Origin: a virus
DNA length: 25,111 nt
IMG/VR virus record: IMGVR_UViG_3300010354_000592
Span: 1-25,111 of that record
Strand: one strand, 5' to 3'
Shown here: piece by piece, positions 5,540 to 22,454 of the stretch
How the letters are laid out: every line of letters begins with the position of its first letter
How positions within the stretch are numbered: position 1 is the first letter of the stretch
Notes under the pieces: model-generated
The model's input: the letters and a program-made list of their open reading frames with translations, nothing else
What the model was told of the DNA's origin: nothing
Databases searched by the model: none
Position numbers and translations under genes: made by a program

Positions 5540-6301
5540 ATGTTATTTAGTAAAAACAGAACACCGTCGGACGTTTATCGTAAAATTTACGAACAACATC
5601 ATGGCCCTATTCCAAAAGATGAATTTGGTAGAACGTTCGAAATTCATCACATCGACAATAATTCGGAAAATAATGACCCATCTAATTTAGTTGCCTTGTC
5701 GATACAAGAACATTATCAAGTTCATTACGAACAAGGAGACTGGGTAGCTTGTTTGGCGATGTCACATAGAATGAATCTATCACCAGAAGAAACATCACGA
5801 TTAGCCAGAAATAACGCCCTAAAACAAATAGAAAATGGCATTAACGCATTTGCCAATTTCACATTCGAAGAGCGAAGTAAGTTAGCCAAAAAAACTAATG
5901 CTGATAGAGTCGCCAATGGCTCACATCATTGGTTAGGCCCTAAGGGCAATAAAGAACGAGTTATGAATGGCACTCATAATTTTTTAGGGAACAACAATCC
6001 ATCTCATCGCCGCATGGCAGATGGCACTCATAATTTTTTAGGATTATCAGCAAAACGTGTTCAGGATGGTACTCACAACTTTTTGAAGGCAACTGGTGCC
6101 AATAATGTAAATTACGATCATACAATTTATCATTTCCTAAATGTCAACACTGGCGAAGAATTGCACACAACTCAACTCGATCTTAGAACAAGATACAATC
6201 TACTTCAAGGCAATTTAAGTGCAGTATGTAGAGGAGTTAAGAAATCATATAAGGGATGGGTAGTAAAAAATAACCCAAGAACGAAAAAAGAATCCGAATA
6301 A
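5540..6301 (+). CDS. HNH homing-type endonuclease
   Basis: This 253-residue protein has an N-terminal HNH nuclease core: PIPKDEFG, then IHHIDNNSENNDPSNLVAL (residues ~35-53), then EHYQVHY. The His pair, the Asn and the following His supply the expected catalytic and metal-binding pattern. The middle carries at least four copies of a short NGTHNFLG-like repeat (residues ~125-180), resembling the small DNA-binding modules of phage HNH enzymes. The C-terminus (DHTIYHFLNVNTGEEL...GWVVKN) matches the C-terminus of the second HNH protein at 10516-11118, so the two are paralogues. A good GAGGAG site precedes the ATG at 5540. The gene sits between the fibre and capsid genes against the local late-gene direction, as expected of an intergenic mobile endonuclease. 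The cleavage site is unknown; gene 23 or its flanks is a candidate. Confidence 0.85.
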   Translation: MLFSKNRTPSDVYRKIYEQHHGPIPKDEFGRTFEIHHIDNNSENNDPSNLVALSIQEHYQVHYEQGDWVACLAMSHRMNLSPEETSRLARNNALKQIENGINAFANFTFEERSKLAKKTNADRVANGSHHWLGPKGNKERVMNGTHNFLGNNNPSHRRMADGTHNFLGLSAKRVQDGTHNFLKATGANNVNYDHTIYHFLNVNTGEELHTTQLDLRTRYNLLQGNLSAVCRGVKKSYKGWVVKNNPRTKKESE

Positions 6302-10264: not shown

Positions 10265-10489
10265 TTATAAACCTGATCCCTGGGAGGGCGGAGCGTACTG
10301 TTTTCTGATTTGTTTTAGATTTTTTGCCTGTTCAAAAGCACGAACATCTCTCATTTTACGAAGCTTACTAATCATACCCAGAGTGAGCTTTTTTGTTTTT
10401 CTAGAGCTACCCCAAGTCAAACGACTGTTATCGTCTTTGACATCTTGTATGCCTTCTTGTGCCGCTTCATAAAATTCTCTTAGTATCAA
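10265..10489 (-). CDS. Small basic head-cluster protein (gp68 position)
   Basis: This is a 74-residue protein with a TTG start; AAGGA lies about 8 bases upstream, and the nearby ATG runs into an immediate stop. The conserved-looking core is KLTLGMISKLRKMRDVRAFE, then KNLKQIRKQYAPP (residues ~34-68), strongly basic and helical. I recall similar short proteins next to portal genes in marine T4-like phages. It sits between portal and gp67-like genes, so it may be a prohead core or vertex component, perhaps a shortened counterpart of T4 gp68 (141 residues). An exact TATAAATA late element lies upstream on the same strand at 10521-10528. Function is inferred from position only. Confidence 0.65.
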   Translation of the reverse strand: MILREFYEAAQEGIQDVKDDNSRLTWGSSRKTKKLTLGMISKLRKMRDVRAFEQAKNLKQIRKQYAPPSQGSGL

Positions 10490-10502
10490 GACATTTTCCT
10501 TG

Positions 10503-10510
10503 TATAAATA
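10503..10510 (+). promoter_or_regulatory. Exact T4-type late promoter TATAAATA for HNH gene
   Basis: This is a perfect match to the T4 late consensus. It lies 13 bases from the ATG at 10516, so transcription would start at or next to the start codon. It forms one arm of an inverted repeat with 10520-10528. Confidence 0.6.
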
Positions 10511-10515
10511 GGTAT

Positions 10516-11118
10516 ATGACTATTTATATCAAAAGACCAAGAAGTCCGATTTATAGAAAAATTTACGAGGAACACTACGGACCTATACCCAAAGATGACC
10601 AGGGTGTGTCATACGACATACATCATATTGACGGGAACCCAATGAACAATGATATTTCCAACTTGGTTGCCGTGTCTAGACAGGAACATTACGATATACA
10701 TTATCACCAAAGAGACTTCTCATCATGTTTTTCAATAGCAAAAAGATTAAATTTATCCAAAGAAGAACTATCCAAGTTAGCATCATTTGCTGGAAAAATA
10801 GGTGGTAGCAAGTCTAGAGAGCGAGTCAAAAATGGAACTCATAATTTGCTACGTAGACCTGACGGTAGTTCATCATCAGGTGACCGTTATAAAAAAGGAA
10901 ATCATCCTTTTCTAAAAATGAAATTTGATGGGCGCAACAATCCTAGATATGATGACACGATCTATATTTTTAGCAATATAGACACAGGTGAAACCGTTGA
11001 AATGACTCAATACGACTTCGTGAAACATTTTTCCCTAGAAAATTACAAAGGAAACATCAACTCAATGATAAAACATGGCAAGTTTAGGCACGTTAAACGA
11101 TGGACCGTGTTAAAATAA
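10516..11118 (+). CDS. HNH homing-type endonuclease, paralogue of the 5540-6301 gene
   Basis: Starting at the ATG at 10516 gives 200 residues beginning MTIYIKRPRSPIYRKIYEEH. The longer reading from 10459 adds 19 residues unlike the paralogue and would cross the promoter. The HNH core is IHHIDGNPMNNDISNLVAV (residues 35-53) followed by EHYDIHY. A single NGTHNLL unit is present, where the paralogue has at least four. The C-terminus (DDTIYIFSNIDTGETVEM...) aligns with that of the paralogue. The gene sits on the opposite strand inside the head cluster, between the portal and the 74-aa gene, and ends only four bases from the portal stop. No Shine-Dalgarno is visible. It is probably an intergenic homing endonuclease that arose from the same source as the other HNH gene. 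Confidence 0.83.
   Translation: MTIYIKRPRSPIYRKIYEEHYGPIPKDDQGVSYDIHHIDGNPMNNDISNLVAVSRQEHYDIHYHQRDFSSCFSIAKRLNLSKEELSKLASFAGKIGGSKSRERVKNGTHNLLRRPDGSSSSGDRYKKGNHPFLKMKFDGRNNPRYDDTIYIFSNIDTGETVEMTQYDFVKHFSLENYKGNINSMIKHGKFRHVKRWTVLK
10521..10528 (-). promoter_or_regulatory. Exact T4-type late promoter TATAAATA for 74-aa gene
   Basis: The reverse strand reads TATAAATA, 32 bases before the TTG start at 10489. It lies inside the first codons of the HNH gene on the other strand. Confidence 0.6.
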
Positions 11119-12915: not shown

Positions 12916-15900
12916 TTATGCGTAACCATTCTGAACAATTTCTCCAGTATTAGTGGCTACAGAATTCATATGATTTTCTACGATTCTCAGTCTCTCATCT
13001 AAAATTTCTGTCATTCTGGTAATTGCTGAAACAATAGGACTTGTGTCTACTGATAACATACCATCGATGCTAACTGGAACTGTTCTTCCATCTGCTAGTG
13101 GAATAACTGCTTCTGGTCCATTCTCACCTGCCACCGACACTCCTGATGTAATACCACCCTTGGCTAACATTTCAATGTGCCACGGATCTCGGTCGCTGAG
13201 ATTTTTACTAAGTTGCTTAAGTCCGGCTCTTTCTAAAATGCCCATTTCTGCCAACTTCGCCGCTTGTTGTATATCAACTGCTAATCCATGTTCATGTTTG
13301 CTTTTACCTGGTTCGGCTACGACAGCATTGGGATCTTTAGATTTAAGCTCTTTATTCAGTCGTTCTTGTTCCTGAGCTGTTCTAAAAGCACTATTGATCT
13401 GTAGCTTATCTTTACCATCCGATAAACGATTGAACTCTTCAGCAGCGGTTAGCACACGTTCAATAAGTTGAGGTTCTAATTTCTTAAAGGAATCTTTATT
13501 TCCAGTACCCCCACCAAATTTAAGCAAGCGCTCAATTCTAGCATCTAGATTCTCATCGTTAGAATCTCTCGATTTTTCTTCATATAACCTTTTAATGCCA
13601 GTATTGATTACCTTACTACTTGTTCGAGGGCCACCAGACATAGACCTAGTCGCTGGACCCGAGGGCTCAGTCTCTATACTATATCCTTGTTTTTCAAGAA
13701 ATGCCTTATATTTCTGAATTTTACCTTGTTCTTGTTCGCGAATCCGGTTAGGTGCGTTTCTAGATCGATTCTCACTGTCATGCAGTCTAGCAATAACATC
13801 ATGAACAGTGGCACCATCTTTAAGTCCCAATTCTTTAACATCTTCAGCGCTGAGTTTGAATTTTTTAGCCTGTTCCAGAGTCTGTGTAAGCAGAAGATTC
13901 TCGTGCTTTTTAAGATCTATGTTATTAACGTCAATATCATTTTGTATAGCATTTAGTTTTTCACTATGTTTTTGCTTTTTGGCTTCGTAACTCAGAATAT
14001 TTTGTCGTTTTTCAAGCAACTGCTTATCGATAATATTCATCTGATCAGCAATCTTTTTTCGTTCTTCGTCAGTTTTGCTTTGGGCTGCTTGAGTCTGAAG
14101 TTTTTGACGTTCGGCTTCAAGCTTCTTTTGATTGTCGATCTCAATTTGCTTCTGCTGTTCTAAATTTTTTATAGATATGTTTTCAATGTCTTGTTTGTTT
14201 TTTAGATCGCTCTGAGTTTTTCTCATTGTACCGATATCTTCAGGATTCGGTGACTTTTTATCGTCCAAGTCGATTCCAAATCCCTTAAAAAATTTAACAA
14301 TAGCCTCAGTTGCAGAATTCATAACCTTACCCAAATACTCACTGATTTTGGCTAATCGTTCAAACACCGGTGCTAAACCGTTAGCAGCAGATCCGATTGT
14401 TTTTTCTAGTGCCTGAGCGTTATTTCTAGTAGCTCGGGCATCAGCAACAGCAGCATCTCTCTGAGCGCCACTACCTTCTTTCATCGCTTTAGTAGTATCT
14501 TCGATTGCTTTCATGCCTGCTTCCTGAGACTGTCTAGCAACAATGTTTGCTCGTCTTATGTCTTCAGTTGTCAAGCCTAGTGCTGCTGTATCAACTCCAC
14601 CCAAAATACCAGCCATTTGACTTCCATATCGTTGGCTGTATTTTATAGTCTCATCAGCATATCTCTTTTGAGCACGATGTATTTCATCAACATTTTTACC
14701 GCTTACCATGCCTTGAATAGCGTCCATGCTTTCTTTGCCACGCATAGCAATATATTGTAAAGCGTCTCCAGAAATAACATCACCTACTGTTACAATTTCT
14801 TGAGCGGCTTTATAAGCCATGGGACCAAACTGCCGGGCAGCGGCAAGGCCTGCCATCATTGCGTCTGCTTGTGTTTGTTGGCCTGCTGCTACCAGTTCCT
14901 GATATTTGAGCTGTATTGACTGCTCTCTCATCATGGCTTCGCGCTCTTCTAATAGTTTATCTCTGTTTTGACCAGTTAGCTCGCTAAGCTCTTGAAGATT
15001 CTTCATATAGTTAGTGGTTATATTTCCTACCTGTTGATTAGTTTTTCCATAACCAGCACCAAAGTCAATCATTTGTTTTGCAACACGAGTATAAGTCTTT
15101 GCTAGAGATTCTGAATTGTAGCCAATATTTCTAAACATCGTCTCAAGTTCGGTATTGACTAAGTCAGACTTGAACATGTTTGCTAGATTTTTAGCACCAT
15201 CTCCTGCTGTTGAACCAAACGCTCCTAAAGACTCGCTCGTCGATTGAATGATCTGTTGATATACTCCAGCGTGATCTTTAAGAGTCAAGCCAAAACCATG
15301 AATGTTTTCTTGAACACCCATAATGCCACGACTTGTTATCTGTCCATATTCAGCAACTTGCTCAAATACTTCATTGAGCTTTTGCATGTGCTCGCTAGCG
15401 GCTACAAATAACTTTCCAAGCACAGTTACAACAGCAGCAAGAACTTTGACTATCGGACCTCCAAATACAAACATAAGTCCTGATATGATTGTGGTAATAC
15501 CTTCTAGAGCGTCACCGTATTTCTTCATTCCAGAAGTGGCACTAAACGCTCCCCGAGTAAAGTTAGCGACTACATCAATAGCACTGTTCATTGCACGTTC
15601 ATATTCGAATGCTCGCCGTTTTCTTGTCTCTAACTCTTCTTTAGTAAATTTACCAGATTTCTCTTGTGCTTTAACTCCGTCAAGTGTTGCCTTAGTAGAT
15701 GATTGAATAGATTGTGAATACTCAGCGTTGGCTTTTTGCTGTACCTTATTAGCAGCAGCCTGACTAGCGTTCATGCCTGATAATGTAGCGTTAAGACTTT
15801 GATTAATGTTAGCAGTGCTTGCTGTCAAATTCTTTTCGACACTCTTAAGATCAATACCGCCAGAAATTGTTTTGTTTAATATATCAAATGATCGGGTTAG

Positions 15901-16134
15901 TGCATCCGAACTTTGTGTTAGAGATTTAAACGAACTAGAACTTTTTTCTGTATTAGCCGTATTAGTCCTAACGGCTTTTGTATTATCCTTAACGGCTTCT
16001 GTATTAGTCTTAACGGCCGTGCTGGATTTACCAAGATTTGCCGTAAATCCCGAACTCTGATTGCCGATCAATTTGTTCAAATCATCGATAGCTTTAACCA
16101 GATCTTCGAATTTTTTAGGATCAATATCAGCCAT
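12916..16134 (-). CDS. Tail tape-measure protein with C-terminal M15-type peptidase domain
   Basis: This 1072-residue protein has long helical and coiled-coil regions (~30-180 and ~640-790, the latter rich in Gln, Lys and Glu). A hydrophobic stretch at ~210-246 fits tape-measure proteins that enter the host membrane. Near the C-terminus, residues ~915-990 carry a metallopeptidase signature: NSAFRT, then SKHEHGLAVD (S945, H947, D954), then DPWHIE (H986). This is the zinc-binding pattern of VanY/M15 L,D- or D,D-peptidases, which cut peptidoglycan cross-bridges or stems. Directly after it, GENGPEAVIPLADG is a motif widespread at the ends of tape-measure proteins. A 21-bp tandem repeat encodes TNTEAVK-like heptads near residue 45. 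Likely roles are to set tail length and open the cell wall during DNA entry. It lies immediately upstream of the portal gene and divergent from the gp26-like gene. An AAGGTG site precedes the ATG. Confidence 0.83.
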   Translation of the reverse strand: MADIDPKKFEDLVKAIDDLNKLIGNQSSGFTANLGKSSTAVKTNTEAVKDNTKAVRTNTANTEKSSSSFKSLTQSSDALTRSFDILNKTISGGIDLKSVEKNLTASTANINQSLNATLSGMNASQAAANKVQQKANAEYSQSIQSSTKATLDGVKAQEKSGKFTKEELETRKRRAFEYERAMNSAIDVVANFTRGAFSATSGMKKYGDALEGITTIISGLMFVFGGPIVKVLAAVVTVLGKLFVAASEHMQKLNEVFEQVAEYGQITSRGIMGVQENIHGFGLTLKDHAGVYQQIIQSTSESLGAFGSTAGDGAKNLANMFKSDLVNTELETMFRNIGYNSESLAKTYTRVAKQMIDFGAGYGKTNQQVGNITTNYMKNLQELSELTGQNRDKLLEEREAMMREQSIQLKYQELVAAGQQTQADAMMAGLAAARQFGPMAYKAAQEIVTVGDVISGDALQYIAMRGKESMDAIQGMVSGKNVDEIHRAQKRYADETIKYSQRYGSQMAGILGGVDTAALGLTTEDIRRANIVARQSQEAGMKAIEDTTKAMKEGSGAQRDAAVADARATRNNAQALEKTIGSAANGLAPVFERLAKISEYLGKVMNSATEAIVKFFKGFGIDLDDKKSPNPEDIGTMRKTQSDLKNKQDIENISIKNLEQQKQIEIDNQKKLEAERQKLQTQAAQSKTDEERKKIADQMNIIDKQLLEKRQNILSYEAKKQKHSEKLNAIQNDIDVNNIDLKKHENLLLTQTLEQAKKFKLSAEDVKELGLKDGATVHDVIARLHDSENRSRNAPNRIREQEQGKIQKYKAFLEKQGYSIETEPSGPATRSMSGGPRTSSKVINTGIKRLYEEKSRDSNDENLDARIERLLKFGGGTGNKDSFKKLEPQLIERVLTAAEEFNRLSDGKDKLQINSAFRTAQEQERLNKELKSKDPNAVVAEPGKSKHEHGLAVDIQQAAKLAEMGILERAGLKQLSKNLSDRDPWHIEMLAKGGITSGVSVAGENGPEAVIPLADGRTVPVSIDGMLSVDTSPIVSAITRMTEILDERLRIVENHMNSVATNTGEIVQNGYA

Positions 16135-16175: not shown

Positions 16176-16198
16176 GTTAATAATTAGGAGCATTTTCA

Positions 16199-17023
16199 AT
16201 GAATCAAAACCCTCTGAAGCAATATTTTCGTCGTCCCAGCATTCATGTAACGATTCCCACTGGCGGAAAGCATTATTCTGCTCAGGTTTTAGAAGTTACC
16301 GAAACCGGTCAACTTCCGATCTATCCCATGACTGCCAATGACGAAATCATTTCCAGAACTCCTGATGCTCTGTTTAATGGATCAGCAGTAGCATCAGTCA
16401 TTCAGAGTTGTGTTCCTGCTGTAAAGAATGCTTGGGCGTTGGATGCTGCTGATGTTGAAGCACTAATGATCGCTATTAGAATTGCTACCAACGGCGAAGA
16501 AATGGATATCGAAACCACTTGCCCAGAATGTCGTGAAGAAAGTGCTTATGGAGTCAATCTTTCTGGAGTGCTAACACAGGTTCGTAATCCTGATTTTAAC
16601 ATTATCATGGAACTTGGCGATCTTCAAATCAAGTTTAGAAGTCTGACTTTCAAAGAAATGAATAATAACGGTGACGAACAGTTTGAAATTCAAAAACTAA
16701 CTCGTGAAGTTACTCAAATGGAAGACGGTCCTGAAAAGAATCGACTAGCTGGTCAATTACTAACACGAATGAACGAATTACAGTTCAAAATCATTGCTCG
16801 TTCTATTGAATATATCAAGACCCCTGAAGTTAGAGTCAATCAACAAGACTTTATCGTGGATTTCTTGAAGAACTGTGACAAGCGCATGTTTGAGAACATT
16901 CGTAATCGTAGTATGGAACTTAGAGAACAGGCTCAGAGCAAACAGTTAAAGATAGTGTGCCAACATTGTCAGCATAATTACGAACAGAAAATAGAGTTTA
17001 ACATTACAGATTTTTTCGTCTAA
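16199..17023 (+). CDS. 26: gp26-like baseplate hub / tail assembly protein
   Basis: This 274-residue protein resembles the T4-type baseplate hub gp26 family. Recognisable stretches include HVTIPTGGKHYSAQVLEVTETGQLPIYPM (residues ~16-44, given here only as a landmark), the DALFNGSAVASVIQSCVP segment, and RSIEYIKTPE...FLKNCDKRMFENIRN. Two CxxC pairs, C108/C111 and C254/C257, probably form one zinc ribbon. The start is fixed by AGGAG and a late element upstream. The stop at 17021 comes directly after a TTTTTTC slippery heptamer, and a strong hairpin begins two bases into the stop codon, so part of translation probably shifts into the -1 frame. Its position beside, but divergent from, the tape-measure gene recalls tail assembly chaperones. 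Identity to gp26 is by motif memory. Confidence 0.85.
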   Translation: MNQNPLKQYFRRPSIHVTIPTGGKHYSAQVLEVTETGQLPIYPMTANDEIISRTPDALFNGSAVASVIQSCVPAVKNAWALDAADVEALMIAIRIATNGEEMDIETTCPECREESAYGVNLSGVLTQVRNPDFNIIMELGDLQIKFRSLTFKEMNNNGDEQFEIQKLTREVTQMEDGPEKNRLAGQLLTRMNELQFKIIARSIEYIKTPEVRVNQQDFIVDFLKNCDKRMFENIRNRSMELREQAQSKQLKIVCQHCQHNYEQKIEFNITDFFV

Positions 17024-17061
17024 AGCTTCTCTATCTGTCTGTTGAAGACATAGAGAAGCTT
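17011..17061 (+). promoter_or_regulatory. Programmed -1 ribosomal frameshift signal
   Basis: The heptamer T TTT TTC (17011-17017) is in the correct register of the gp26-like frame (GAT TTT TTC GTC TAA), the standard X XXY YYZ form. After a five-base spacer, AAGCTTCTCTAT (17023-17034) pairs perfectly with ATAGAGAAGCTT (17050-17061). The helix can continue with GTCT/AGAC (17037-17040 with 17046-17049) past a two-base bulge. No T-run follows, so it is not a terminator. Confidence 0.82.
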
Positions 17062-17247
17062 GTACAATCAATGGAAACTGAATGTCGTTCTATTGAAAGA
17101 AACGCACTGAGACTTGCTTGGTATATGAGAGGTGGTATTCTCTATGAGGACGTACTTAACATGAGTCCTCAACAACGAGAAGAAATAGGCAATATCATAG
17201 ACGAGAACATGGAAACTACAAAGAAAACCGGGCTCTCATTTTTTTAA
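17017..17247 (+). CDS. -1 frame extension of gp26-like gene (frameshift product, ~76 codons)
   Basis: In the -1 frame the sequence stays open from the slippery site to TAA at 17245-17247. It encodes RLKLLYLSVEDIEKLVQS, then METECRSIERNALRLAWYM, RGGILYEDVLNMSPQQREE, and a KKTGLSFF end. It is clearly protein-like (helical, SVEDIEKL, WYMRGG, KTGLSFF) and, from memory, resembles the small ORF next to gp26 in marine T4-like phages and gp51-type hub assembly factors. There is no ATG, GTG or TTG in this frame before 17071, and that ATG has no good ribosome-binding site and would discard the SVEDIEKLV part. Translation as a fusion of about 349 residues with the gp26-like protein is therefore the simplest reading. 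This mirrors gpG/gpGT tail chaperones. Confidence 0.78.
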   Translation, partial: RLKLLYLSVEDIEKLVQSMETECRSIERNALRLAWYMRGGILYEDVLNMSPQQREEIGNIIDENMETTKKTGLSFF

Positions 17248-17288: not shown

Positions 17289-17954
17289 ATGCTTTTACCT
17301 TCAGACTTTGTTCCTACATGGTTATACATCAAGCAACACAATAAAACAGGCTTGAAATACTTTGGAAAGACGATCCGCAAAGATCCTATAAGATACCTAG
17401 GATCAGGAACTTATTGGACCAATCATCTAAATATACACGGTACCGATGTGACAACTATCTGGTGTAGATTATTTACCGATAAAGAAGAATTGACAGAGTA
17501 CGCATTGAATTTTTCCAAAAACAATAACATAGTTGAATCCAAAGAATGGGCCAACCTAGAATATGAAGATGGATTATCTGGATCAGGGCTCAGAAGAAAA
17601 AATTCAATAGAAACTATTGAAAAGAGAAGAATAAAAAATACAGGTAAAAAAAGAACAGATGCCCAACGCAAAAGAATGAGCGATGCACAAAAGAACAGAA
17701 CTCCTCATGTTTATACAGATAATGAAATAGAGGTTATAGGTAATAAGATATCAACTGCTCTTAAAGGAAGAGTAATGTCAGATGACCATAAACAAAAATT
17801 ATCAGAAAGTCTCAAGGGTAAAATGTTAGGAATTGCTAAAACAGAAGAAACAAAACAAAAAATGCGAAAGCCTAAATCACTCGAACATCGTAAGGCTATT
17901 TCAGACGCAAGAAAAGCAAAATATGCGGCATTACGACAATCTAATAACTCATAG
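17289..17954 (+). CDS. GIY-YIG-type homing endonuclease with NUMOD3-like repeats
   Basis: This 221-residue protein has an N-terminal variant GIY-YIG nuclease: WLYIKQHNKTGLKYFGKT (residues 11-28), PIRYLGSGTYWTNHL (33-47) containing the probable catalytic Arg35, and a later EWANLEY segment. The first half of the motif is degenerate (WLYI rather than GIY). Residues ~115-215 contain repeated basic units such as TGKKRTDAQRKRMSDAQK and LKGRVMSDDHKQKLSESLKG. These are typical NUMOD3 DNA-binding modules of homing endonucleases. It lies between the frameshift gene and the non-coding block. No Shine-Dalgarno is visible; a late-type AATAAATA lies 14 bases before the ATG. It is probably a free-standing mobile endonuclease rather than a phage core gene. 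Confidence 0.83.
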   Translation: MLLPSDFVPTWLYIKQHNKTGLKYFGKTIRKDPIRYLGSGTYWTNHLNIHGTDVTTIWCRLFTDKEELTEYALNFSKNNNIVESKEWANLEYEDGLSGSGLRRKNSIETIEKRRIKNTGKKRTDAQRKRMSDAQKNRTPHVYTDNEIEVIGNKISTALKGRVMSDDHKQKLSESLKGKMLGIAKTEETKQKMRKPKSLEHRKAISDARKAKYAALRQSNNS

Positions 17955-19207: not shown

Positions 19208-19248
19208 TTATCACTGTGCTAAAAATTTATTCTTCAGCACAGTGATAA
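19208..19248 (-). repeat. 13-bp perfect inverted repeat at the end of gp46
   Basis: TTATCACTGTGCT (19208-19220) and AGCACAGTGATAA (19236-19248) flank a 15-base loop that contains the gp46 stop codon. On the mRNA the hairpin ends just before the AGAG site of the downstream nuclease. There is no T-run. It may be a processing, stability or translational-control element. Confidence 0.7.
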
Positions 19249-22200
19249 CTACTATACCCTCCTTCTTTTACTACTCGTAGAATACTACTAACTCGACTGC
19301 TAAGTTCATCACGATGACTTACAAGCCAAATGCTCTTACTTCTACGTCGAGTCATATCTTTGAGCAAAGCAATACTTGACTCTACTCCTGCTGTATCAAG
19401 TCCATTGTCTATGAGTTCATCAACAAATAGAACATTGATAGGAGCATATAAACTTTCCCATACATCACGAAAAGCAAAACTCAATCCAATGATCAGTCTA
19501 GTACGCTCACCACGACTAAGATTATCAAAGTCAAGATCACGACCAAGTTCAGTGATTTCAACCGTTAGATCGTTCTGAAATACTACTTGATGAGGCAAGC
19601 CCATTTTATCTAGATAGTGAGTCAAACGATTGTTAAGATAACTGAGATTCTGTTCAATGATTCGCTTTCTAACAAAACTACGCTTGTTTGTTAAGAGATC
19701 AAGTAAGAAATCTTGATGTTGAAGCACTCGATTAAGTCGATTGATTTCTTCGTAGTCCACTGTTTGAACAGCGTTTTGCTCCATATCTTCAATCTGTTCA
19801 TGATATGGATCTTGATCTGCAAGTCGTCGTTCTAAATCATCGGCTAGTTTGGTTACTTGACTTTGATGCTTCAGTGCTAACTCTAGTGTATCGTAATGAA
19901 CTCGTGGAACTTGTCCCAACTCGCCCACTGCTGCTAGATCTTGTGCATGCTGCTTATCAGTATTAGTTCGTTCGGTCTCATACTCTGAAATGGTAGTTTC
20001 TAGATACTGTACTAGTTCTAGATGTTTAGTTCTAGCAGTGTCTAGTTTGTTCTTGTGCCCAAGAGCCAACTCTAGTGATTCGTAATGTACTCTAGGCGCA
20101 GTGCCCAGTTTGCCCAACGATTTAATATGCTCATCATGTTCTAAAAACTGCGATTCAGCGCTAAGATAACTTAAACTGACTTCTTGTAGTTGTTTGTGCT
20201 TGCCACGTAAGATAGTTTCATGCTGATCATCATGTAGAGCTTGACCACAAGCATAACACTGATGATTCTCTAACTTGGCTATCTCTGCTTCTAGCTTATG
20301 ACGATTGTTATTAAGTTCAGTCATATGCTTTCGAGCACTGTCTCTCCATTTTTTAGCTTCGATAAGCGTCTTGTTGTTATCGTTCCAAGTTTGTAGTAGT
20401 CTGTGATTCTCTACTTCTTGCTCGATAACAATACTCTCTAAACTGGTTATAATATCTAACTGTGATTTAATATCTTTCTTAATCGCTGCTACTGAGCGAA
20501 CATGCTTGCTATCCAGTGTAGCACGAGTGCTCGTATATCTGGCTGTAATGTTAGCTATCTCAGATCGCTTGTTATTATAAGTTTCAAGATCACGATGTGA
20601 GATAATCTCTTGATCGATATCAATTTTAGTAAGAGCAGTTAGTTCTTCAGTAAGATTCATGACATCCTGATCGCGAGTAGCAGTCCACAGTCGCTGACGT
20701 TTCTTTAAGTTGTCGATCTGTTCTACAATACGACGATTGGCTTCTTCTAGACCCTTGATACGATACTGTTCGCTCTGAATATTATCACGAGTTTGTTTGT
20801 TTAGCTCTTTGATCTTTTCTGCTCGCTCACTCAATAACGTAATACCCAGTAACTGCTCAATGATCTTTCGCTGATCAGCAGCACGAAGCGCTAAGAAGGG
20901 TTCATTATAAGTATTAAGAGCAATAATTTGCTTGAACATCTCGGGTTCCATTTGTAACAAACGTTCTATTTGCTCTTGAGTTTCACGACTATCGCCCTGA
21001 CTGTCATCCACAATCTGTTGTTCTTGATTGTTGATAAAGAACTTTAACACATTTGGCTTACGACCACGAATGATTTTATAATCAACTCCATTAACTTCGA
21101 ACTCTACTGTACTAAGCATGTTCTTTTGATTGGTTCTATTAATTAGATTGTCTTTACGAATATTATTAATAGCAGTGCCAAACAGCGCATAACTGAGTCC
21201 CTGTATAATCGATGTATTGTGTGTTACTACATAGTTATCAGTAACATACAAATGATCGGGATGATCGATATAAATACACTGACATTCACTATCTTCTATT
21301 CTATCAATGGCAGTTATTTGTAATCTAAGTTGATTTTTATACTGATATGATTCTGATATTTTGTTCTTTTTTCTGTTTAAGTAAAACAGATCTCGTGGGT
21401 TATGATATCTAATTCTAACGATATATGCTGTTTTGCCCTGTCTAACTTCCCCTAGATATGAGAATCTTGGGGCTTTTTCTGTGATTCTTGCTAAGCCTCC
21501 AATACTTCGAACTAGATCTGCTACATCTAATGCCAGTTGTTTACTAGTAGTGCAATAAGATATAGAACCAGTTCTATCAACAGTTCCGTCAGTATCTAAT
21601 AATCCTTGAAGCAGTTCTATTTTCTGTCTAACACTGATGTTTTTGTACTGATTCGGAATGAACTTGTCTTCGCTATTGACATTCAAGTTCAAATCCGCGA
21701 TATATTTTCTAAAAGGATGAAGAATCTTTTTAGGATGGTGTTGCTTCTCGTTCATGACAACACGATACGAAATTTTTTCACGAGTAGTTGTATGAACCTG
21801 TTTTAGAGAACAGTTGATCAACTGAAGTTCTTTGTCTACTCTAGAAACTATCTCAGAATCACAAGACGTTATTCCCGGAGACGATCTAAGATTTCCGTCC
21901 CCTATCATAGCACCTAGTGTGTAGGGTGCTATTGAAACAACAGAATCTAGTGATTCGGTAGGTGTAAATAATGGAACATACAGATAATGTAACTGTTTAC
22001 TCTTCTTGTTACGATTACTATCAAGTAAATCACCGATCTCTTTAGTTGTTAAGATTCGTGTATGATTCTTATCATTCTTGTTTCTAAACTGATGACTATA
22101 GATGTTCCATAAATGTTCTTCGCTGGCCTCACATGTTCTTCCATCCTTAAATGTAAGACGATATACAGGAATTTTACCTTGAGGATAAATTCCTAGAACA

Positions 22201-22454
22201 GTAGATGATTGACCGTCATGTGCTATCACTCGATCCCCAACTTGTATATCTTTCATCAGAGTCCATCCTGATTCTGTAAGAATTTTACTAGTCAGAGGTT
22301 GAGCTTTCCCGGTACCATTCCTAGCACCTTCTCCGCCCAAGTCTAAGTTCTCGCCAAGAATCAATGTTAGATCCTGACGATCAAAATCAATAGTCTGTGT
22401 TACTTGTCCAATGCTTAAAAAGTTGCGCAAACTAAGTGTTTTAATTTTAATCAT
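19227..22454 (-). CDS. 46: Recombination endonuclease subunit gp46 (Rad50/SbcC-like), intein-interrupted
   Basis: The 1075-residue precursor is about 712 residues once residues 51-413 (the intein) are removed. The SMC/Rad50-type ATPase is clear. It shows LSLRNFLSIG at the start, the Walker A loop GARNGTGK|TS split by the intein after Lys50, a coiled coil with a zinc hook CYAC (C733/C736), signature LSRGE (979-983), Walker B VLFVDE (1008-1013), and VSHRDE. With gp47 it resects DNA ends for recombination-dependent replication and host DNA breakdown. The start overlaps the gp47 stop as ATGA, and with no Shine-Dalgarno this implies translational coupling. The host part is longer than T4 gp46 (560). 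Residues ~780-800 and ~843-863 repeat the same PRVHY..LELAL block. Confidence 0.95.
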   Translation of the reverse strand: MIKIKTLSLRNFLSIGQVTQTIDFDRQDLTLILGENLDLGGEGARNGTGKAQPLTSKILTESGWTLMKDIQVGDRVIAHDGQSSTVLGIYPQGKIPVYRLTFKDGRTCEASEEHLWNIYSHQFRNKNDKNHTRILTTKEIGDLLDSNRNKKSKQLHYLYVPLFTPTESLDSVVSIAPYTLGAMIGDGNLRSSPGITSCDSEIVSRVDKELQLINCSLKQVHTTTREKISYRVVMNEKQHHPKKILHPFRKYIADLNLNVNSEDKFIPNQYKNISVRQKIELLQGLLDTDGTVDRTGSISYCTTSKQLALDVADLVRSIGGLARITEKAPRFSYLGEVRQGKTAYIVRIRYHNPRDLFYLNRKKNKISESYQYKNQLRLQITAIDRIEDSECQCIYIDHPDHLYVTDNYVVTHNTSIIQGLSYALFGTAINNIRKDNLINRTNQKNMLSTVEFEVNGVDYKIIRGRKPNVLKFFINNQEQQIVDDSQGDSRETQEQIERLLQMEPEMFKQIIALNTYNEPFLALRAADQRKIIEQLLGITLLSERAEKIKELNKQTRDNIQSEQYRIKGLEEANRRIVEQIDNLKKRQRLWTATRDQDVMNLTEELTALTKIDIDQEIISHRDLETYNNKRSEIANITARYTSTRATLDSKHVRSVAAIKKDIKSQLDIITSLESIVIEQEVENHRLLQTWNDNNKTLIEAKKWRDSARKHMTELNNNRHKLEAEIAKLENHQCYACGQALHDDQHETILRGKHKQLQEVSLSYLSAESQFLEHDEHIKSLGKLGTAPRVHYESLELALGHKNKLDTARTKHLELVQYLETTISEYETERTNTDKQHAQDLAAVGELGQVPRVHYDTLELALKHQSQVTKLADDLERRLADQDPYHEQIEDMEQNAVQTVDYEEINRLNRVLQHQDFLLDLLTNKRSFVRKRIIEQNLSYLNNRLTHYLDKMGLPHQVVFQNDLTVEITELGRDLDFDNLSRGERTRLIIGLSFAFRDVWESLYAPINVLFVDELIDNGLDTAGVESSIALLKDMTRRRSKSIWLVSHRDELSSRVSSILRVVKEGGYSSYHCAEE
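21216..22304 (-). mobile_element. Class-3-like intein with LAGLIDADG homing endonuclease in gp46
   Basis: 363 residues interrupt gp46 between Lys50 and the Thr that completes Walker A. The insert starts AQPLTSKILTESGW, so residue 1 is Ala, not Cys or Ser, and it ends VVTHN before Thr. Hint-domain blocks are visible: VGDRV (22-26), EEHLW with His64 and Trp66 in block B, and the CQC-containing block F near 341-343. Trp66, Cys343 and Thr361 match the W-C-T triad that defines class 3 inteins, which splice without an N-terminal nucleophile. LGAMIGDG (130-137) and LLQGLLDTDG (231-240) are the two LAGLIDADG motifs, both keeping the acidic residue, so the endonuclease looks intact. ATP binding by gp46 requires splicing. 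Confidence 0.9.

Follow-up and report, generated by a model that had tools for sequence, protein, structure and literature searches.

The locus examined here raises the question of whether a single tail gene of an uncultivated phage encodes one protein or two. The window, i.e., the whole stretch of DNA that was analyzed, comprises 25,111 nucleotides (IMG/VR record IMGVR_UViG_3300010354_000592, positions 1 to 25,111) of a fragment from an uncultivated T4-related phage, and carries T4-type genes for a gp20-like portal protein, a major head protein, a prohead protease, gp46/gp47-like proteins and a late sigma factor. The gene in question occupies positions 16199..17023 on the plus strand, with an SD-like AGGAG read at 16186-16190, and encodes a gp26-like short chaperone (TAC-N) of 274 aa. 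Its product matched the PF12322 T4_baseplate profile (E 2.9e-22, 79.9 bits against a curated cutoff of 24.5) and phrog_150 (E 2.1e-23), and homologues were found in 62 phage records. The sequence-only reading of the locus had proposed a programmed −1 frameshift that joins this protein to a gp51-like part, and the proposal is supported by register, conservation, selection, start absence, structure and homology, as detailed below. We conclude with high confidence that the gene is a tail assembly chaperone gene of a T4-related jumbo myovirus and is expressed in two forms by a programmed −1 frameshift.

The divergent neighbor, at 12916..16134 on the minus strand, encodes a 1072-aa protein with a VanY-type peptidase domain (PF02557, E 2.4e-8). 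No tape-measure match was obtained for this product among the PHROG profiles; its length, position and domain suggest that it is a candidate tape-measure protein. The window also contains three free-standing homing endonuclease-like genes amid the virion genes, two of the HNH_3 type and one of the NUMOD3 type, at 5540-6301, 10459-11118 and 17289-17954, all on the plus strand; the last of these begins shortly past the −1 frame stop described below. In addition, the gp46-like recombination nuclease subunit gene (19227-22454, minus strand) carries an apparent intein with a LAGLIDADG domain (PF14528, E 1e-7) that interrupts the Walker A motif (...NGTGK/AQPLTS...VVTHN/TSII...).

The chaperone ORF ends in GA T_TTT_TTC GTC TAA. 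The heptamer T_TTT_TTC (17011..17017, plus strand) is in the X_XXY_YYZ register, is read as Phe-Phe in the 0 frame and lies one codon ahead of the stop at 17021-17023, which is overlapped by the spacer GTCTA (17018..17022, plus strand). No other of the 16 main ORFs of the window has an in-register T6 or A6 heptamer near its stop. The −1 frame extension, which resembles the C-terminus of gp51 and is here called the T domain, runs on the plus strand from 17017 to 17247 with a TAA stop at 17245-17247, so that the predicted fusion product is 349 aa long. Beyond the 0-frame stop, 73 codons of the −1 frame are open. When the stretch downstream was subjected to 20,000 dinucleotide shuffles, this length was reached in 34 of them; in the unshuffled sequence, the 0 and +1 frames contain many stops.

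The junction was compared across relatives that had been retrieved by similarity to the 0-frame protein and not by the slippery site. The set consisted of 197 complete related genes, 84 of them non-redundant at <80% identity, from jumbo phages, cyanophages, Pelagibacter phages, Caulobacter phages and KVP40. An in-register TTTTTT[C/T] near the stop was present in all of them (197/197 genes, 84/84 non-redundant), in the exact form TTTTTTC in 192/197, and the −1 extension was likewise found in all 197, including Atu_ph07 and Phosso. Elsewhere in the same genes, a T6 heptamer occupied 12 of 21,463 in-register positions. The first Phe codon of the site is always TTT, and TTC makes up 34% of the other Phe codons. 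The codon before these two Phe codons has T as its last base in every gene, whichever residue it encodes (Ser, Asp, Asn, His, Ala, Thr, Tyr, Arg); protein function gives no explanation for this invariant T. The same site was also found in three further lineages, represented by Aeromonas phage AS-zj, Stenotrophomonas phage YB07 and Agrobacterium phage OLIVR6. In AS-zj (L222), the T domain lies unannotated in the −1 frame at 2193-2400, and it may bear on the reported absence of gp51 in Aeromonas phage Aeh1. A separate observation was made for Rhodothermus phage RM378 (L032, 2010-2200), where a T7 run stands at the end of a gp26-like gene and the next open frame is +1 (or −2). The +1-frame ORF of RM378 gave no match to the T-domain profile, and the shift there might be of another kind.

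Downstream of the heptamer, the 5' arm AAGCTTCTCTAT (17023..17034, plus strand) of a putative stimulatory stem is perfectly complementary to the 3' arm ATAGAGAAGCTT (17050..17061, plus strand). The predicted perfect stem of 12 bp begins 5 nt past the heptamer and has an RNAfold energy of −21.5 kcal/mol (z −4.6); none of 200 shuffles was as stable. Covariation in the stem of the window clade did not rise above shuffles, and RNAalifold predicted no consensus pairs for it, so the support for the stem comes from its energy and position. In all groups of the related genes, predicted structure was enriched directly behind the heptamer, and no such enrichment was seen in the neighboring stretches. 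Compact stems were seen in window-like genes (mean z −3.3 over 45 nt, with 0.0 for control stretches; p 2.6e-7) and in cyanophage-type genes (mean z −3.4 over 45 nt, p 2.4e-11). In two further jumbo groups the folds were larger, with clear enrichment only over 80-130 nt (p about 3e-6), and a compact hairpin was absent from the first 45-55 nt in the subclade L152-L206. The heptamer in register one codon ahead of the stop, the five-base spacer and the perfect 12-bp hairpin were all as the sequence-only reading had described them; aligned across relatives, the heptamer and the −1 frame proved conserved and the form of the hairpin lineage-specific. Cyanophage-type genes have a further element about 10-15 nt upstream of the heptamer, where GAG is preferred over GAA in a Glu-Gly pair, giving GAGG(G) (GAG in 17/24 at this site against 171/654 elsewhere, Fisher p 1e-5). 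This SD-like element, present in L026, L027, L030 and other cyanophage-type loci and missing from the jumbo phages, is likely an upstream stimulator.

The fusion could also arise if the RNA polymerase, and not the ribosome, slipped on the T run. The site is indeed a homopolymer of six to seven T, as such a mechanism would have it. Transcriptional slippage is, however, normally efficient on longer runs, and the run here is held by selection at T6C (192/197) and has not been lengthened. Moreover, the structure 5-8 nt downstream and the upstream GAGG(G) of the cyanophage group fit ribosomal slippage. We therefore regard slippage during transcription as improbable.

If the T domain were instead encoded by a short gene of its own with an independent start, or were translated by re-initiation past the stop, a usable start would be expected in the −1 frame. 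Many records do annotate a separate short ORF (GenBank entries for cyanophage gp51 and for several jumbo phages), and 14 of 29 cyanophage-type genes have an ATG 4-5 codons past the slip that overlaps or adjoins the stop. In the window, however, the first ATG, GTG or TTG of the −1 frame comes 20 codons past the slip and is not accompanied by an SD-like site. The position of the first in-frame ATG varies among 55 jumbo representatives (at 20 codons in 22, at 38 codons in 5), none has an SD-like site there, and its use would lose conserved residues. An independent start also gives no reason for the invariant T_TTT_TT[C/T] with its preceding T, and the same domain is fused in frame in T4. An independent gene for the T ORF was rejected because no starts with an SD were found, and this explanation appears slightly less probable still than slippage of the polymerase.

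To assess whether the −1 frame is under selection as a protein, dN/dS was calculated over 49 independent pairs for the region downstream of the 0-frame stop. The value was 0.088 in the −1 frame, compared with 0.100 in the body of the chaperone and more than 1 in the 0 and +1 frames, and the −1 frame substitutions numbered 1099 at third and 211 at second codon positions. By these substitution patterns, the −1 region evolves as a protein under strong purifying selection. The earlier description of this frame as open, protein-like and devoid of a usable start is borne out. A chance ORF, a sequencing error or a decayed gene is practically out of the question, as the heptamer is conserved in 197/197 related genes (84 non-redundant), which excludes chance, the layout recurs in isolates and metagenome contigs that were sequenced independently, and this selection acts on the −1 frame.

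With a programmed −1 frameshift as the preferred reading, expression of the gene can be outlined as follows. Most ribosomes would terminate at 17021 and release the 274-aa short form, which is gp26-like and would correspond to lambda gpG. A fraction would slip back by one base on T_TTT_TTC, with the tRNA-Phe in the P and A sites re-pairing in tandem, and the stem beginning 5 nt downstream would aid the slip. The slipped ribosomes would produce the 349-aa fusion with the T domain (TAC-NC), comparable to gpGT. On the lambda model, the short form may coat the tape-measure protein and the fusion may recruit tail-tube subunits, the two being made in a fixed ratio. We infer that the slippage is ribosomal, and the same applies to its efficiency and to the binding partners of the two products.

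To get an idea of the fold, the short protein was modeled (pLDDT 88). Residues 1-99 of the model aligned with the HK97 chaperone gp13 (PDB 2OB9) with Z 6.4 over 83 residues and an rmsd of 5.0, which is below the trust level, and the fold likeness is therefore suggestive only. The window protein also differs from HK97 gp13 in being much longer and in having conserved Cys pairs and long helices. To represent the fusion, T4-type gp51 was modeled as its natural in-frame form (pLDDT 81, in the T region just 53-64). Foldseek gave no match in the PDB at E<=0.001 for either model, the structural matches of the gp51 model included no TAC, and a sequence search of solved structures gave nothing credible. 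The strong BFVD matches of the window model were T4-type baseplate hub proteins. Weaker BFVD matches with the same fold were uncharacterized proteins of the Ralstonia phages phiRSL1 and RP12, Erwinia phage Special G and Tenacibaculum phage pT24; going by the predicted fold, they are candidates for unrecognized tail chaperones of large phages.

How does this gene relate to the two T4 genes whose products it resembles? Both T4 gp26 and T4 gp51 exceed the PF12322 cutoff, and when compared pairwise they match (E 8e-6); T4-type gp51 was found in 1,339 phage records. An extra C-terminal domain is present in T4 gp51 alone and not in gp26. Matches between this domain and the T domain of the frameshift phages were obtained with hmmsearch (E 1.7e-7) and hhalign (probability 97%), and phrog_150 spans both. 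The homology chain runs from the jumbo T domain to that of KVP40 and the cyanophages (E 2.5e-9) and on to T4 gp51 (E 1.7e-7); the jumbo T-domain profile matched T4 gp51 directly only weakly, so the link passes via the KVP40 and cyanophage forms. The gp51-like label of the sequence-only reading thus holds for the extension, by its homology to the T4 gp51 C-terminus, and not beyond it. On sequence grounds, T4 gp26 and gp51 are paralogues, gp26 being the short and gp51 the long form, and hence the T4 lineage exchanged frameshifting for two genes. No slippery heptamer was found near the stop of T4 gene 26. The slippery site is missing only in the T4 branch, where gp51 is a full-length gp26 paralogue, and none of the frameshift-type relatives combines a normal start codon and ribosome-binding site for the second ORF with a lack of the site. 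The T4 branch would make the same two products from its two paralogues, the short one from gene 26 and the long one, with its frame fixed, from gene 51, and the simplest history is that a frameshift gene was duplicated and the shift was then lost in both copies. The gp51 proteins of cyanophages and vibriophages lack the first ~200 residues and look truncated (Sullivan et al. 2010, PMC3037559), and the frameshift offers the explanation. T4 gp51 is essential and not found in the particle, and it is classed, together with gp26, as a hub assembly chaperone (PMC3004832).

Among the closest known arrangements is that of cyanophage gp26 with a short gp51 (P-SSM2, S-PM2), which shares the T_TTT_TTC and the −1 frame T domain and differs in its upstream SD-like element, same-strand downstream tail-gene cluster and two-gene annotation. 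The TAC of Vandenendeviridae/Andersonviridae (phage Adele, PMC12846349) is also a myovirus chaperone gene with a conserved −1 shift on a poly-T signal, but the motif is GTTTTT and the phage lineage is another. With T4-type gp26/gp51, the window gene shares the family (PF12322, phrog_150) and the pairing of a short form with a longer form that has the same C-terminal domain; T4 and its close relatives have two paralogous genes, whereas here there is one gene and a −1 shift. As in lambda gpG/gpGT, a shift to the −1 frame late in a chaperone gene would give a rare long form close to the tape-measure gene (a candidate here), although no sequence similarity between the systems is shown and the tape-measure candidate is divergent here and downstream in lambda. 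The lambda heptamer is G_GGA_AAG and the one found here T_TTT_TTC. In lambda, the tape-measure protein is bound by gpG and the tube protein by the additional T domain of the rare gpGT; the gpG:gpGT ratio matters, and neither protein stays in the virion (PMC5009743). These properties, and those given above for T4 gp51 and gp26, agree with the role proposed for the window gene.

The novelty that had been suggested for gp26/gp51 as equivalents of gpG/gpGT did not survive. Vladimirov, Gautam & Davidson (Virology 2022) had already described them as the tail assembly chaperones of T4-type phages, as evident from its title and from the papers citing it (PMC10885494, PMC12846349). A passage in PMC10885494 describes separate short and long chaperone genes in some T4-like phages, and one in PMC12846349 mentions poly-T slippery signals in T4-like TAC-N genes. 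Since the chaperone identity and the two-gene state are already published, the frameshift chaperone described here belongs to the known gpG/gpGT kind; relative to the 2022 paper as represented by these sources, the present work adds the jumbo-phage branch and systematic statistics.

Taken across the T4 superfamily including the jumbo phages, the −1 frameshift is probably the ancestral and usual route to the two chaperones. The T4 two-gene state would then be a derived exception that arose by duplication, with one copy losing the slippery site and the other fixing the in-frame fusion, and the stimulators (compact stem, larger fold, upstream SD-like site) would have been swapped around an invariant heptamer. 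T4 was still named as the exception to the conserved G-T frameshift in a 2016 review (PMC5009743). The finding corrects the annotation of many T4-type and jumbo phage records, in which the T domain now stands as a separate hypothetical gene, as 'gp51' or unlabelled, and the comparison of frameshift-type with two-gene relatives makes the ratio requirement testable.
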